This document shows, in pieces, positions 31,078 through 35,306 of a DNA stretch of 64,000 bases (positions are counted from its first letter, which is position 1; the number at the start of each line of letters is the position of its first letter). The notes below the pieces were generated by a model. The model was not told the origin of the DNA. It worked only from the letters and a program-made list of their open reading frames with translations, and made no database searches. A program made the position numbers and the translations under genes. The stretch covers positions 1 through 64,000 of the forward strand of contig NZ_JAELVQ010000016.1 of NCBI RefSeq assembly GCF_016428595.1. Reading direction: 5' to 3'. This stretch comes from Snuella sedimenti. GTDB taxonomy: Bacteria > Bacteroidota > Bacteroidia > Flavobacteriales > Flavobacteriaceae.

Positions 31078-31150
31078 GACCGGGTAGCTCAGTTGGTAGA
31101 GCATCTCCCTTTTAAGGAGAGGGTCCTGGGTTCGAGCCCCAGCCCGGTCA
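31078..31150 (+). tRNA. tRNA-Lys (anticodon TTT), copy 2
   Basis: Identical in sequence to the copy at 30635. Its 3' end forms the left boundary of the integrated island: the T-arm and acceptor sequence is repeated at 34796. Confidence 0.97.
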
Positions 31151-31156
31151 CTGATA
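31138..31156 (+). repeat. attL-like core at tRNA-Lys 3' end
   Basis: CCCAGCCCGGTCACTGATA covers the 3' end of tRNA-Lys and six bases beyond. It recurs exactly at 34796-34814 in direct orientation, as expected for tyrosine-recombinase integration into a tRNA gene. Confidence 0.75.
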
Positions 31157-31174
31157 GGAATATCAATAGAAAAC

Positions 31175-31208
31175 AAAACCTTGCTAATTATATGATTAGC
31201 AAGGTTTT
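31175..31208 (+). terminator. terminator after tRNA-Lys copy 2
   Basis: AAAACCTTGCTAAT and ATTAGCAAGGTTTT form a perfect 14-bp stem with a 6-nt loop. A variant with a compensated T-A to C-G change lies beside the right core at 34833-34866. Confidence 0.85.
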
Positions 31209-31253
31209 ATAGTTTTTGGGCATTAATTTTATTTGATGTTATTTAGTTTTATC

Positions 31254-31274
31254 AGGTTCACAAATCGTCAACAT
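31254..31274 (+). repeat. 21-bp direct repeat, left copy
   Basis: AGGTTCACAAATCGTCAACA plus a final T is identical to 34716-34736. A shorter GTCAACAT recurs at 31298. Placement inside each island end suggests integrase arm-binding sites. Confidence 0.6.
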
Positions 31275-31394
31275 ATTTTAAAAATTGACCTATAACTGTC
31301 AACATCAATCCAAAATTAATTACAACCATTAATTTTAAGCTAGTTGAATTGATTTTCGTCTCAAACATTGTTTAACAATTAAAAGACATCAACT

Positions 31395-31616
31395 ATGCGA
31401 ACTTCTTCAACATTTTCTATCCTTTTTTGGATATATGCCACTCGTGCAAAAAACAATCAAACTGACATTTACGCCAGAATAACTGTCAACAAAAAACGAG
31501 TAAATATCAGCTTAAAGAAAAAAATTGATATAAGTACTTGGGATGCCAATCGCCAAAAGGTGAAAGGCAATGGAATAACAGCTAGAGTTAAGGTTTCATA
31601 TATCTTTTTTTCTTGA
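31395..31616 (+). pseudogene. truncated tyrosine integrase, N-terminal arm-binding domain
   Basis: The first 60 residues match the N-terminal arm-type DNA-binding domain of Bacteroidota tyrosine integrases: MRTSSTFSILFWIYATRAKN, then IYARITVNKKRVNISLKKK and ISTWDANRQKVKG. The family continues for more than 300 further residues, with a core-binding and a catalytic R-H-R-Y domain. Here the frame ends after about 73 residues and nothing catalytic follows before 31830. It reads away from the tRNA just after the left core, the usual integrase position. After 31610 comes A-rich DNA with a CTTGAT/ATCAAG hairpin that may mark the breakpoint. Confidence 0.8.
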
Positions 31617-31830
31617 TAAAAAAAGAAACAAAAAAATCAAGACTGCATAAAACTTTGGAAACAATTAACGGTTCATTACGCTATATTTTAGGAAGCTTTG
31701 TAACTAACCAAGATTACTAAAGATAACGCCTTAAAACGTAGAAACACCAAGAGAAATAGTAACTAAACCCCTAAAATAGGGTCGCTCCACTCACCTATTG
31801 TTTTAACCAAAATTTTATGAGGTCAATAAA

Positions 31831-33648
31831 CTAAAACTTAAAATTTAAAATAAAGCTCATATTACTAAAATGATTATTTCTCAGAAAATCTTTATTGTAT
31901 TGGCCATATTTAAATAGAAACCCTGGACTAAATAAAAACCATTTAGTTTCATATTCAACTTCTAAACCTGCCCTAAGGCCGTATGTATATATCCAATTTG
32001 TTGACCCTTCTTCAGAATTATTATTTGGATTTGACAATTCTTCATCAGTATAGAAAGTTGTTGCCCCAAACTCTATCCCTATAAACGGATATATTCGATG
32101 ATTTTTTGAATATCTTTTTAATAAAAAATATTCGAATGCGCCACCTATTTCTGGTTGAGGAGAAAAATTATACCCCGTATAATTAATACTTTTGCCCAAA
32201 TCTAAAAAACCAGACAGCCTAGTTTTACGAGATATATCTACTGCTACTTCTAACAATATTGAGACGGAACTTAAAGGTAAAGAATCATTTGATGTTAATT
32301 GAAAATCATTATTATCTCCAAAAAATGTCGTAGAAAAACCTGTTCTAACAGAAAAGGCTCCTCTTTTAACATATTTATGATTAAATTTTACTGGATTACT
32401 TAACAAATCTTTATCATTGATTTGATATAAATAATAGCTTTTATTTTGTTTCTTTTTTAAGAATCCTTCTTCATTGGTTTCAGTGAAATCACTTTTAAAT
32501 TTGATACTACGTACACCAACAGAGTCACTATATGAGTAGCCTATTGTATCATTTTGATGTAGATTTCTAATAAATTTTTGACCAATTTTCTTTTTTGAAA
32601 TTATAATTTTATTATTTGAAACAACTTCTTCATTATCAAAATAAATTTGCCCTTCATTATCCTCATTTTTAGGAATAGATTTCCCAGTTAGATAGTCAAC
32701 ACTATTAGAATCCTTATATAATGGAGTTATTGACTTGGGTTTATCAGTTGGTATTAATTTAATATTAATTGGATTAGAATCATTAATTCCATCTGATACA
32801 TTAAAACTTAAGTAATAAATGGAATCATTCGAAATAACAATTTTCTGATTAGGACTATTTGGTGATAAATTAACTTTATTTATATGTTGATAATATTGAT
32901 TTTCTACAGGTATATTTTTCCAATTATAACTTATTTCTTCTGTATCAATATCATATGACTTAGACCCTGAAACCTCAATTGTATCTCCTTTAGATACAAA
33001 GGATTCAAAACTTTTAGAATATGATTTATTATACATTTCAATTATAGCAACTGGAGGGTCATTATTTTCATCAAATAGCCGATATAAGGCATTTTTTATT
33101 TTCTTCAAGTAATCTGTATTTTTTGGGTTTATAAAAAAATTTTCAACCTTTTTAACTTTTTTAAATGTACCACTTCTAATATTACCTTTACTTTCACGGT
33201 CAATTAAGGGCTTTGTTTCAAATAATTCAAATTGAAATTCAATTAACTCTCCTAATGTATTTGTTTTAATTGTTAAGAAATAATTGTAGCTAAGTATAGT
33301 ATTGATTATTTCACTATTTACTTTGTTATCAATTAATTCTAAATTTATTAATGATTTAGCATTATATTTATTCCAAACAATGTTAGCCATTTCGGATTGT
33401 AATTTACTATCCTCTTTTAATCTGTTAAAGCTCTCAACCTCTTTAAAATATGTCTCAATGGCATTTTTCTTATTAATACTTGAAGTTGTCATTTCTTTTA
33501 GCTCTGATTCGATATATGGGACTAGAAATCCTGGTTCTTGAAAATAGTAGAGTAATTCTTTTTTATTAATATCAGAAACCTCATTATTTTGAGAAAATAA
33601 TAATCCTTGACTAAAAACTAAGATTATTATAGAAAGTCTTTTAAGCAT
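31831..33648 (-). CDS. island protein: PKD-like domain plus outer-membrane barrel
   Basis: Unrecognised at family level. The 605 residues start with a signal peptide (IIILVFSQGLLFSQ). An alpha-helical region (about 20-200) is followed by a PKD/cadherin-like domain (about 205-305), seen in VSGSKSYDIDTEEISYNWKN and the terminal YLSFNVSDGINDSNPINIKL. A Lys/Ser/Asn-rich linker leads to about 190 residues of alternating strands with GAFSVRTGFSTTFFG and ending in SFILNFKF, a typical barrel terminus. So it is probably an outer-membrane protein with a periplasmic or surface PKD module. Its start overlaps the upstream island gene by 22 bp. Function unknown; a secretion, adhesion or defence role is untested. 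Confidence 0.75.
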   Translation of the reverse strand: MLKRLSIIILVFSQGLLFSQNNEVSDINKKELLYYFQEPGFLVPYIESELKEMTTSSINKKNAIETYFKEVESFNRLKEDSKLQSEMANIVWNKYNAKSLINLELIDNKVNSEIINTILSYNYFLTIKTNTLGELIEFQFELFETKPLIDRESKGNIRSGTFKKVKKVENFFINPKNTDYLKKIKNALYRLFDENNDPPVAIIEMYNKSYSKSFESFVSKGDTIEVSGSKSYDIDTEEISYNWKNIPVENQYYQHINKVNLSPNSPNQKIVISNDSIYYLSFNVSDGINDSNPINIKLIPTDKPKSITPLYKDSNSVDYLTGKSIPKNEDNEGQIYFDNEEVVSNNKIIISKKKIGQKFIRNLHQNDTIGYSYSDSVGVRSIKFKSDFTETNEEGFLKKKQNKSYYLYQINDKDLLSNPVKFNHKYVKRGAFSVRTGFSTTFFGDNNDFQLTSNDSLPLSSVSILLEVAVDISRKTRLSGFLDLGKSINYTGYNFSPQPEIGGAFEYFLLKRYSKNHRIYPFIGIEFGATTFYTDEELSNPNNNSEEGSTNWIYTYGLRAGLEVEYETKWFLFSPGFLFKYGQYNKDFLRNNHFSNMSFILNFKF

Positions 33649-34193
33649 AATTTAGTTCTTTTTAAAATAAGGTCTTTATTTTTAAAAATTAGCGTTTTAA
33701 ATTGTTCTTCAACTTGTTGTTTTAAAATATTTTTTGGTGCCGGACCTAAGGCAGGAATAGAAAATTCTAAAAATTCAAGGTTGCAATTTTCAATTTCAAT
33801 AATCAATTTACCTCCAGTATAGTTTGCCACATCAGAGTTATTAATAAGTGCTATATAACTACCAGTGTAATCAATTTTAATGAATAAATTTCTTTCAAAT
33901 TTATCAGTGTCAAACTCAAATATTCTTTTTCCTGCATTTCTCAATCTTCCCATAACCTCATAATTAAAACCTTCAAAATTTTCTTTGCTTTCTTCTACAT
34001 AAATGACGTCTCCTGCATCATTGTTAATGTCTTGTATTGGTTTTGCTTTACTATTAAAGTTAAATAGACTCACAATAAAGGTTATTATTACTACTAAGGA
34101 AGCAACATAGCCTACCCTAGTTGGCATTTTCCAACTATTCCATTTTTTTTTACTTGGAATAATACTTTTAAAAAACACAAATATTCTCTTCAA
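33627..34193 (-). CDS. island protein: single-pass membrane protein
   Basis: No family recognised. The 188 residues have a basic N-terminus, one transmembrane helix (YVASLVVIITFIVSLF, about 29-44) and an extracytoplasmic domain of about 140 residues. That domain contains GSYIALINNSDVANYTGGKL and a C-terminal amphipathic helix. Its 3' end overlaps the barrel protein start by 22 bp, so the two are translationally coupled and probably work together, one in the inner and one in the outer membrane. The DNA is AT-rich like the rest of the island. Confidence 0.7.
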   Translation of the reverse strand: MKRIFVFFKSIIPSKKKWNSWKMPTRVGYVASLVVIITFIVSLFNFNSKAKPIQDINNDAGDVIYVEESKENFEGFNYEVMGRLRNAGKRIFEFDTDKFERNLFIKIDYTGSYIALINNSDVANYTGGKLIIEIENCNLEFLEFSIPALGPAPKNILKQQVEEQFKTLIFKNKDLILKRTKLCLKDFL

Positions 34194-34715
34194 TTTATAT
34201 TTATATATTAGGTCTTAAATATCAATATTATTAATATGTAAATATACTCATTTTAACAAGTAATAAACTACTTAAGTTATTACAACAATTTAATCATTCC
34301 ACACACATTACACTTCCCTCCTACGTCGTCGTGTAAAAAGTGTTCCATTAACTTTTGTAAAAGAAACTTTGGAGAAGAAAACTTTTAAAAGAAAAATCAG
34401 CAAATGAAACTATTGCTTTTACCAAAGCAAAGTAACATAATGCTGACCATTATAGTACAAATATTTATTATGTTGTTTAAGCCATTGTTTCCATTTGATA
34501 GCTATAATTCTATATTATGTAAAATATCCCAGAATCATTCTATTCCATTAGAATGATTGGAAACTGAACCACAAATTTCTTAGTTTTATAATAAAAATAC
34601 ATCTATTTATATAGGCTCAATATAAACCTTAAAGTTTACAATTATTTTTATTCATAAACTTATATATTTATATTTGTAACAACGAGAGTTAATTTGACAT
34701 ACTTATAATTAAGCA
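34194..34715. other. non-coding island right arm
   Basis: Very AT-rich DNA with stop codons in all frames. I see no gene, tRNA or strong hairpin. It includes the promoter region of the two-gene cassette, but no clear TAnnTTTG box was identified. Confidence 0.5.
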
Positions 34716-34736
34716 AGGTTCACAAATCGTCAACAT
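34716..34736 (+). repeat. 21-bp direct repeat, right copy
   Basis: Identical to 31254-31274, 60 bp from the right core. Confidence 0.6.
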
Positions 34737-34786
34737 CGATTTGATAAACTAATAAAAGAGCGATGACTGCTAGGATTAGAACAAAA

Positions 34787-34866
34787 GGTTCAGAACCCAG
34801 CCCGGTCACTGATAAGTATATCAATTAAAATCAAAACCTCGCTAATTATAAAATTAGCGAGGTTTT
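34787..34866 (+). repeat. attR-like remnant: tRNA-Lys 3' end plus terminator
   Basis: The 19-bp core lies at 34796-34814, with weaker match from 34787 (GGTTC kept). It is followed by a terminator-like hairpin, AAAACCTCGCTAAT/ATTAGCGAGGTTTT (34833-34866), homologous to that at 31175. Only the tRNA 3' third is present, so this is not a functional tRNA. Confidence 0.75.
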
Positions 34867-34970
34867 ATGTTTTTTAGACAATCCTTTAATTGGATCAAGC
34901 AAGAAAGGGATCAATCTCAAAAGTTGTGTGTGGATTTGCTAAGGAATGATCTTTTTGCAGAAAAAAACCT

Positions 34971-35306
34971 TTGGATTCATATATAGATATACTGAAAGTT
35001 CTGTTGCCAGAACTATTGATTACCCATTTTGACATTGTAAAACACGACAGTAATAAAGAAGTACTTCACTTATATTTTGAAGAAAAGAAGGAGATTCCCA
35101 AAGAGTTTTCGTCTAGCATGATTATTTCTCACGGATTCCATAAAGAAATTACGATACAAGATTTCCCTGTTCGAGGAAAAAAGGTGTTCCTGCATATTAA
35201 ACGTCGTAGATGGCTAGATAAACCCAGTAAAGAAGTTGTGCAAAGAGATTGGAATCTAGTAGCACAGGGAACTCGAATGGGATCAAGGCTAATTGTTGTG
35301 GAATAA
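34971..35306 (+). pseudogene. ISAon1-type transposase N-terminal fragment
   Basis: The 111 residues match the N-terminal ORF of ISAon1-family (ISL3-related) insertion sequences: EFSSSMIISHGFHKEITIQD, KKVFLHIKRRRWLDK and VQRDWNLVAQGTRM. The C-terminal residues after GTRM differ from what I expect of the family, and the DDE-containing second ORF is absent, because the tRNA-Met gene follows. It starts at a TTG. This is an IS remnant just outside the right island boundary. Confidence 0.7.

Follow-up and report, generated by a model that had tools for sequence, protein, structure and literature searches.

A probable nested relic at a tRNA-Lys gene of Snuella sedimenti: a cassette of dif-array type within the remains of a tRNA-targeted element

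Chromosomal integrons hold arrays of gene cassettes that have inverted-repeat sites, with attC boxes reading RYYYAAC/GTTRRRY, and whose cargo includes toxin-antitoxin and defence genes. Here, we describe a locus in the genome of Snuella sedimenti (57 contigs; G000 in our set) that points to cassette arrays of another kind in the Flavobacteriaceae, the family from which all relatives compared here were drawn. The locus lies in a stretch of 64,000 nucleotides (NZ_JAELVQ010000016.1, our contig C8, positions 1 to 64,000; the window in what follows), where 3.7 kb are enclosed by two copies of a tRNA-Lys 3' end. We read it, with a probability of roughly 0.7, as a nested relic, in which a cassette from an Xer/dif-type array would have been carried into tRNA-Lys by an integrative and conjugative element (ICE) that then decayed around it. 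The basis for this is the anatomy of the locus, the association of related cassettes with a dif-like site, half-sites at many cassette starts, the sharing of cassettes between genera and one further ICE-borne case.

The cassettes resemble those of integrons in forming arrays, in their toxin-antitoxin and defence cargo and in their inverted-repeat sites, but they are anchored at a dif-like site and hold several genes each, with a median of 4.6 kb between the conserved left end (LE) and right end (RE). A plain integron was rejected, as the boxes seen by eye are ACATAAC/GTTATGT or ACATAAT/ATTATGT and thus unlike the attC boxes. No integron integrase was noticed in the open reading frame (ORF) lists of six array loci, where no integron-integrase model was searched.

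The dif/pdif (Xer) modules of Acinetobacter (PMC12907356) are like the cassettes in having no recombinase of their own, Xer-type bounding sites, linear arrays of several modules and toxin-antitoxin cargo, and in riding on other mobile elements. They have alternating C/D and D/C flanking sites and are found on plasmids and also, within chromosomes, at dif-like sites other than the main one, whereas the cassettes start at a single dif-like site, in one orientation, and have long noncoding ends (about 225 bp for LE and 165 bp for RE). Integrative mobile elements exploiting Xer (IMEX), namely, CTX-phi, TLC-phi, VGJ-phi and the gonococcal genomic island (GGI), share dif as the target, and the source names no integrase of their own (PMC5357621); LME-1 of Legionella is grouped with them on the same two features (PMC9765430). 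In Vibrio, elements are stacked and dif is reconstituted, and CTX-phi uses a pair of palindromic attP sites separated by 90 nt (PMC5357621), to which the pairing of dif with the inverted site U in the cassettes is comparable. IMEX are phages or larger elements, whereas the cassettes have variable cargo, in which we noticed no replication or transfer genes. Single-stranded DNA proviruses of Bacteroidetes belong to the same phylum and have dif-like attachment sites, some with an extra site near one end (PMC3091885, PMC9719478); a viral contig, by eye a marine microvirus, that carries the dif-like site studied here is in line with this. These proviruses encode capsid and replication proteins, and none was noticed in the cassettes. 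Among the titles and abstracts listed from the open-access literature, for Flavobacteriaceae or Bacteroidetes or for no particular taxon, none was recognised as describing such arrays, subscription papers being outside this scope, and polar dif-array cassettes as a route for collecting genes, for example phage-defence systems, are apparently undescribed.

Anatomy of the tRNA-Lys locus

The initial annotation had described a small degenerate island at tRNA-Lys, bounded by a directly repeated 19-bp core of the tRNA, with 21-bp repeats at the inner ends and a truncated integrase beside the tRNA. All three structural observations were borne out (Table 1). The core comprises the last bases of tRNA-Lys plus five more and has only two copies in the window, even with 3 mismatches allowed, against an expectation of 0.01 from dinucleotide shuffles, while the inner repeat, AGGTTCACAAATCGTCAACAT, is exact, occurs nowhere else in the window and has a shuffle expectation of 0. 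The actual duplication is longer than first noted, 109 nt at 80%, and spans a terminator-like hairpin 3' of the tRNA. What stood of the island itself is a tRNA-targeted element with a dead integrase; the 3.7 kb, however, are not one small island.

Table 1. Features of the tRNA-Lys locus and its right flank, in window coordinates
Feature	Position	Strand	Details
Intact tRNA-Lys(TTT), integration target	31078..31151	+	ARAGORN; Rfam RF00005
19-bp core, left copy, at tRNA 3' end	31138..31156	+	CCCAGCCCGGTCACTGATA
Left end of ICE-like element 1	31152..31380	+	Hairpin 31175-31208; arm repeat 31254-31274
5' part of tyrosine integrase gene, cut off	31395..31567	+	Arm-binding domain PF17293
LE, conserved left end of dif-array cassette	31600..31824	+	First ~10 bases uncertain
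Cargo gene, 605 aa	31831..33648	-	
Cargo gene, 188 aa	33627..34193	-	22-nt overlap with the 605-aa gene
RE, conserved right end of cassette	34295..34458	+	Alignment of 31 copies including the window
U, loop plus inverted dif-like site	34447..34565	+	Site TATAATTCTATATTATGTAAAA at 34503-34524
Right end of ICE-like element 1	34566..34795	+	Arm repeat 34716-34736
19-bp core, right copy	34796..34814	+	CCCAGCCCGGTCACTGATA
Putative left-end stub of another element in the family of element 1	34815..34895	+	Hairpin 34833-34866
Remnant like ISL3-type transposase zinc ribbon, outside the island	34971..35306	+	24.2 bits, cut-off 25.5

We interpret the rims of the locus as the ends of an ICE-like element that lost its interior. 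There is no intact tyrosine integrase beside the tRNA, and the arm-binding domain alone remains: the 73-aa ORF at 31395-31616 matches PF17293, the N-terminal arm-binding domain of tyrosine integrases (E 4e-8), and its DNA similarity to an intact integrase of the same genome stops at about 31567. This intact relative lies on contig C13 and consists of tRNA-Asp, a hairpin, an arm repeat and an integrase of 427 aa that has an arm, a SAM-like and a catalytic domain; its right end, an arm repeat followed by the tRNA-Asp 3' end, is on contig C54. Both elements have the tRNA 3' end duplicated at their two ends. The exact 17-nt arm motif has 4 copies in the genome, 2 per element, and the spacing from arm to tRNA on the left is 105 bp in either element, while that from arm to tRNA fragment on the right is 52 bp in the window and 53 bp in the tRNA-Asp element. 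Since the ends of the intact relative are on separate contigs, this relative is far larger than 3.7 kb. Its integrase is a candidate for action in trans, although it sits at tRNA-Asp and not at tRNA-Lys. Among the ORFs of at least 50 aa between the cores, inspected by eye and in three cases with Pfam, no conjugation genes were recognised.

Relative G006 has, behind tRNA-Lys at another locus (contig C9), a left end that shares 86% identity with that of the window over 145 nt. When the tRNA-Lys regions of 20 relatives were fetched, the gene was recognised by motif in 11 genomes, 10 of which have other terminators or spacers and no element end behind it; the remaining one, G049, has an element-type end. 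None of the 98 relatives surveyed is of the same genus, and the flanks of the island are located apart in those that were compared, for example G019.

On the right, the sequence past 34814 scores 87 against the G006 left end and 82 against the left end of the window itself, followed by 78, 63, 46 and 40 against four others, with scores of at most 30 against 11 element-free sequences behind tRNA genes and at most 36 for shuffles. Because element ends score high and element-free sequences do not exceed 30, the most likely reading of the right boundary is a remnant of another element that had arrived earlier, as would result from tandem insertion at one tRNA. A decayed third tRNA-Lys as the source of the right core was ruled out, since only the 3' portion of the tRNA is present and the arm-repeat region of the element lies ahead of the core. 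The ISL3-type remnant further out has related stretches in G050, G021 and G013, and tRNAs are the only RNA elements around the island to reach the Rfam gathering score.

The middle of the locus (about 31600-34565) is assigned by sequence to a separate cassette family found mainly near dif-like sites. On contig C15 of S. sedimenti, LE and RE are found again, arranged and oriented as in the window but with other genes between them, the window LE being 97% identical over 100 nt to the C15 copy. The terminal ~27 nt of RE form a dif-like site, with an XerD-like arm, a spacer and an XerC-like arm, and similarity to other cassettes fades at about 34565. The C15 cargo comprises one protein that combines MqsA-like and SocA/Panacea domains, a weakly MqsR-like protein below the Pfam cut-off and a multi-ubiquitin protein. 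Neither cargo protein of the window has a usable family match or a clear homologue. Scoring of first-pass candidates found the 605-aa protein in its own genome alone among 299 genomes of the family, and the 188-aa protein in its own genome and, weakly (E 8e-4 to 0.0099), in 7 more of 149. By eye, the former has a signal-peptide-like N-terminus and an outer-membrane-barrel-like C-terminus, and the latter looks membrane anchored, with one N-terminal helix in a low-confidence model; with predicted local distance difference test (pLDDT) values of 31 and 55, respectively, both models were excluded from fold searches, and an envelope protein pair is a low-confidence guess. Read on the minus strand, along most cargo genes, RE ends in a AGGAGGGAAGTGTAATGTGT-like motif that is partly conserved across the aligned copies and is possibly a ribosome-binding site or leader ahead of the first cargo gene.

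Related cassettes and the dif-like site across the family

RE was surveyed in 99 genomes, including that of S. sedimenti, with the best 8 candidates scored per genome, and matches, some of them short, were found in 26. The aligned copies have sharp edges, the LE and RE repeats are 165-240 bp long and mostly 70-90% identical to those of the window, and several genomes have at least two copies a few kilobases apart with different genes in between. A dif-like site, searched with up to 3 mismatches in its 25-bp core, was found in 24 of the 26 genomes, as a single copy in 22; the control, the reversed pattern, gave 4 matches in all. For the positions of RE we counted rows with E <= 1e-10 outside the S. 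sedimenti genome, which left 32 rows in 17 genomes. Twenty-two of these rows, in 14 of the 17 genomes, are within 25 kb of the dif-like site, at distances of 0.9-21 kb, and every one of them is on the XerC side and in a single relative orientation. Where the outer edge of an array is visible, it reads TGTACTATAATTTATATTATGTAAAATAGAA or a sequence close to it; in G056 (L081), the edge is degenerate. The XerD side is bordered in several genera by a conserved block (a 203-aa protein, a DUF3817-like and an MscS-like protein, named by eye), with the arrays opposite. Among 30 loci with the conserved D-side gene, no clean empty dif was seen; 20 of them show the dif-like site, and array pieces are present on the C side in 13 of these and on the D side in none. 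Dif-like sites without LE or RE in the examined stretch occur in eight other genera (L218-L224, L229). An exact-pattern search of named genomes gave at least 118 RE stretches of up to 8 kb each, 47 of which also have LE and 13 the dif-like site; this exact pattern would miss both RE copies that lie inside tRNA elements.

We presume that the site is the chromosome dimer resolution site dif, on the grounds of its sequence, copy number and skew. In 11 of 17 loci, the local GC skew is positive ahead of the site and negative beyond it, and in G032, where the site is at 2.932 Mb, the sampled skew is still positive at 2.88 Mb and has become negative by 2.96 Mb. In Bacteroidota, dnaA need not mark the replication origin, and we therefore weighted GC skew above the distance from dnaA; placing the terminus by that distance was dropped, the site being near dnaA in some genomes. 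The dif-like site of S. sedimenti itself is on contig C4 (L212:9690-9835), 325 bp from the contig end, beside a second kind of strong inverted repeat, which has a fold z of -3.7 and is by eye also present beside dif in L309, L315 and L316.

Counted from the site, U comes first, then noncoding DNA that holds a further dif-like site, then LE, the cargo and RE, often with U again after that. An XerD half-site with at most 2 mismatches follows 26 of 60 LE ends, 20 of them with exact 14-mers, compared with 0 of 120 controls. In the 72 cassettes in full view, the median length is 4600 bp from LE to RE (35 cases) and 2349 bp from RE to RE (37 cases). At E 1e-5, no locus had LE and RE in mixed orientation, and 168 of 208 ORFs run opposite to the LE-to-RE direction, that is, towards dif where it is visible. 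Winogradskyella pelagia and Algibacter pectinivorans share a 4.1 kb cassette at 87.5%, and Aquimarina agarilytica and an uncultured Algibacter share 0.9 kb at 86%, so that transfer of cassettes between genera is likely from these identities.

The cargo includes toxin-antitoxin, restriction and Pycsar/CBASS (cyclic oligonucleotide-based antiphage signalling system) genes. A sample of 103 of the 208 cargo proteins holds response regulators, transporters and enzymes as well as matches to defence models, among them a type I methyltransferase, PtuA, Argonaute, a Pycsar cyclase, E2 and NucC. A cassette of about 0.9 kb is present in at least nine loci and is of ParE type by Pfam in the copy tested. 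A phage, plasmid or virus home for RE was rejected: viral_contigs contains no exact copy of the RE core and 0 U-type sites, and RE-U has no match among PLSDB plasmids or INPHARED phages.

A second ICE-borne cassette was found on contig C14 of G049, a genome from another genus, where an intact integrase lies beside tRNA-Pro and RE follows 30 bp further on. The genes after RE encode E2, a Pycsar-type cyclase, a two-transmembrane (2TM) effector, an LRAT-like protein and a sigma-factor-like protein, after which come a piece of LE and a half-site with two mismatches. The end facing the integrase is RE in G049 and LE in the window, and this opposite facing suggests that the two captures were independent events.

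Proposed origin and rival explanations

In the sequence of events that we favour, an ICE-like element with a PF17293-type integrase would have entered tRNA-Lys next to an older member of its family, forming a tandem, and later lost its interior, most of the integrase included, so that a foreign cassette would make up the bulk of what remains. At its usual home, a cassette in circular or folded form may recombine with dif through its dif-like ends in an Xer-type reaction, regenerating dif at the chromosome edge and pushing older cassettes outward, and arrays would in this way extend on the XerC side. Cassettes would also travel on ICEs, the probable route of the window cassette to tRNA-Lys. We infer the identity of the site as dif, XerCD as the enzyme, a circular intermediate and the order of events. 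In all six genomes searched, there is an XerD-like gene (above the model cut-off in five, that of S. sedimenti being just below) and a second Xer-like gene; a third Xer-like gene, with an open frame of 377-411 aa, is present in each of G005, G024, G032 and G049. A route through a folded single strand is conceivable. Folding of the single strand did not serve as proof of a hairpin like that of CTX-phi: the dif-U region of L079 folds strongly (z -4.3 and -5.0), and RE-U folds are weak or absent (L093 -1.63, L168 -1.45, L173 -1.90, L156 -0.80).

A number of observations weigh against this account. The window cassette is at tRNA-Lys and not at dif, its LE is without the noncoding part that precedes LE in arrays and has no XerD half-site after it, and its RE-U hairpin is no more stable than shuffled sequence (z -0.03 and 0.00). 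Neither an excision product nor reads were seen. In the family at large, 34 of 60 LE ends are without the half-site, and 9 of the 32 RE rows are on contigs without a dif-like site, one of them inside a tRNA-targeted element. The G056 array (C1:3181948-3192711) lies 1.24 Mb, the shorter way round, from the exact site at 861879; possibly, the array was moved by a rearrangement or a former dif was located there. Six of the 17 loci have no local skew change at the site, and in G014, the skew is +0.130 at 2.48 Mb, -0.002 at 2.68 Mb and -0.043 at 2.88 Mb, with no local sign change at the site at 2.999 Mb, which is loose agreement. If dnaA marks the origin, its distance of 0.2-0.36 Mb from the site in G021, G024 and G032, which are finished or nearly so, also speaks against a terminus. 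As for carriage by ICEs, the LE piece in G049 is a 36-nt match to the LE end (E 5e-5) and no more, and no ICE integrase was found in the 118 RE stretches listed from named genomes.

The main rival, a serious one though less likely, has the cassettes moved not by the host XerC/XerD but by a pair of tyrosine recombinases (320 and 326 aa) that are encoded on an apparently circular element with an RHS (rearrangement hotspot) tip and would act in trans, as a dedicated, integron-like system. Contig C43 of S. sedimenti (L336), with 7741 bp and identical ends of 120 bp, is probably such a 7.62-kb circle, with the recombinases adjacent (Pfam), and it bears one composite inverted dif-like site of the same design as the cassette site; two-copy elements of similar gene order in G019 (C26, L334) and G017 (C9, L335) have one site per copy. 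The composite-site pattern is weak evidence, however: it has 2 rows in G019 and 4 in G017, but its reversal, as a control, still yields 1 and 2 matches there, and it missed the array sites in most genomes. Moreover, the sequence similarity to LE and U outside the site is slight, the ORFs listed for the six array loci include, by eye, no such recombinase pair, and a single dif-like site as the insertion point is what Xer recombination predicts. The other genes of C43 encode an RHS-type tip (by eye; a CdiA-type tRNase domain in Pfam), a 532-aa protein and a helix-turn-helix regulator, and the related elements in G019 and G017 are tandem copies of 7.7 and 7.2 kb.

That LE and RE are mere noncoding repeats gathered near the terminus, between which homologous recombination shuffles the cargo, is improbable. 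Repeats of their length do offer a substrate for recombination, but their uniform orientation, confined to one side of the dif-like site, the XerD-like half-sites at cassette starts and the copies in tRNA-targeted elements away from the site argue otherwise. Very improbable is the reading closest to the initial annotation, a single 3.7-kb integrative element with selected cargo that lost its integrase recently. The perfect core and arm repeats agree with it, whereas the middle belongs to a different family with ends of its own and the intact relative, with its ends on C13 and C54, is far larger.

Implications for the family

Beyond the single locus, we put forward tentatively, and with more doubt than conviction, that Flavobacteriaceae have a second platform for gene capture besides integrons, consisting of polar, Xer-grown arrays of multi-gene cassettes at dif that are ICE mobile and pass between species, with the recombinase pair of a circular RHS element as a possible driver in trans. 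The window would then show a cassette that is not where its family normally sits, and this opens the ICE route to testing; dif arrays would be tied to ICE-borne spread. The defined ends of the cassettes would serve the discovery of new defence systems and help explain the variable gene content of the terminus. If this is true, a large bacterial family keeps and swaps defence, toxin-antitoxin and metabolic genes at the site of chromosome separation by means of the host machinery.

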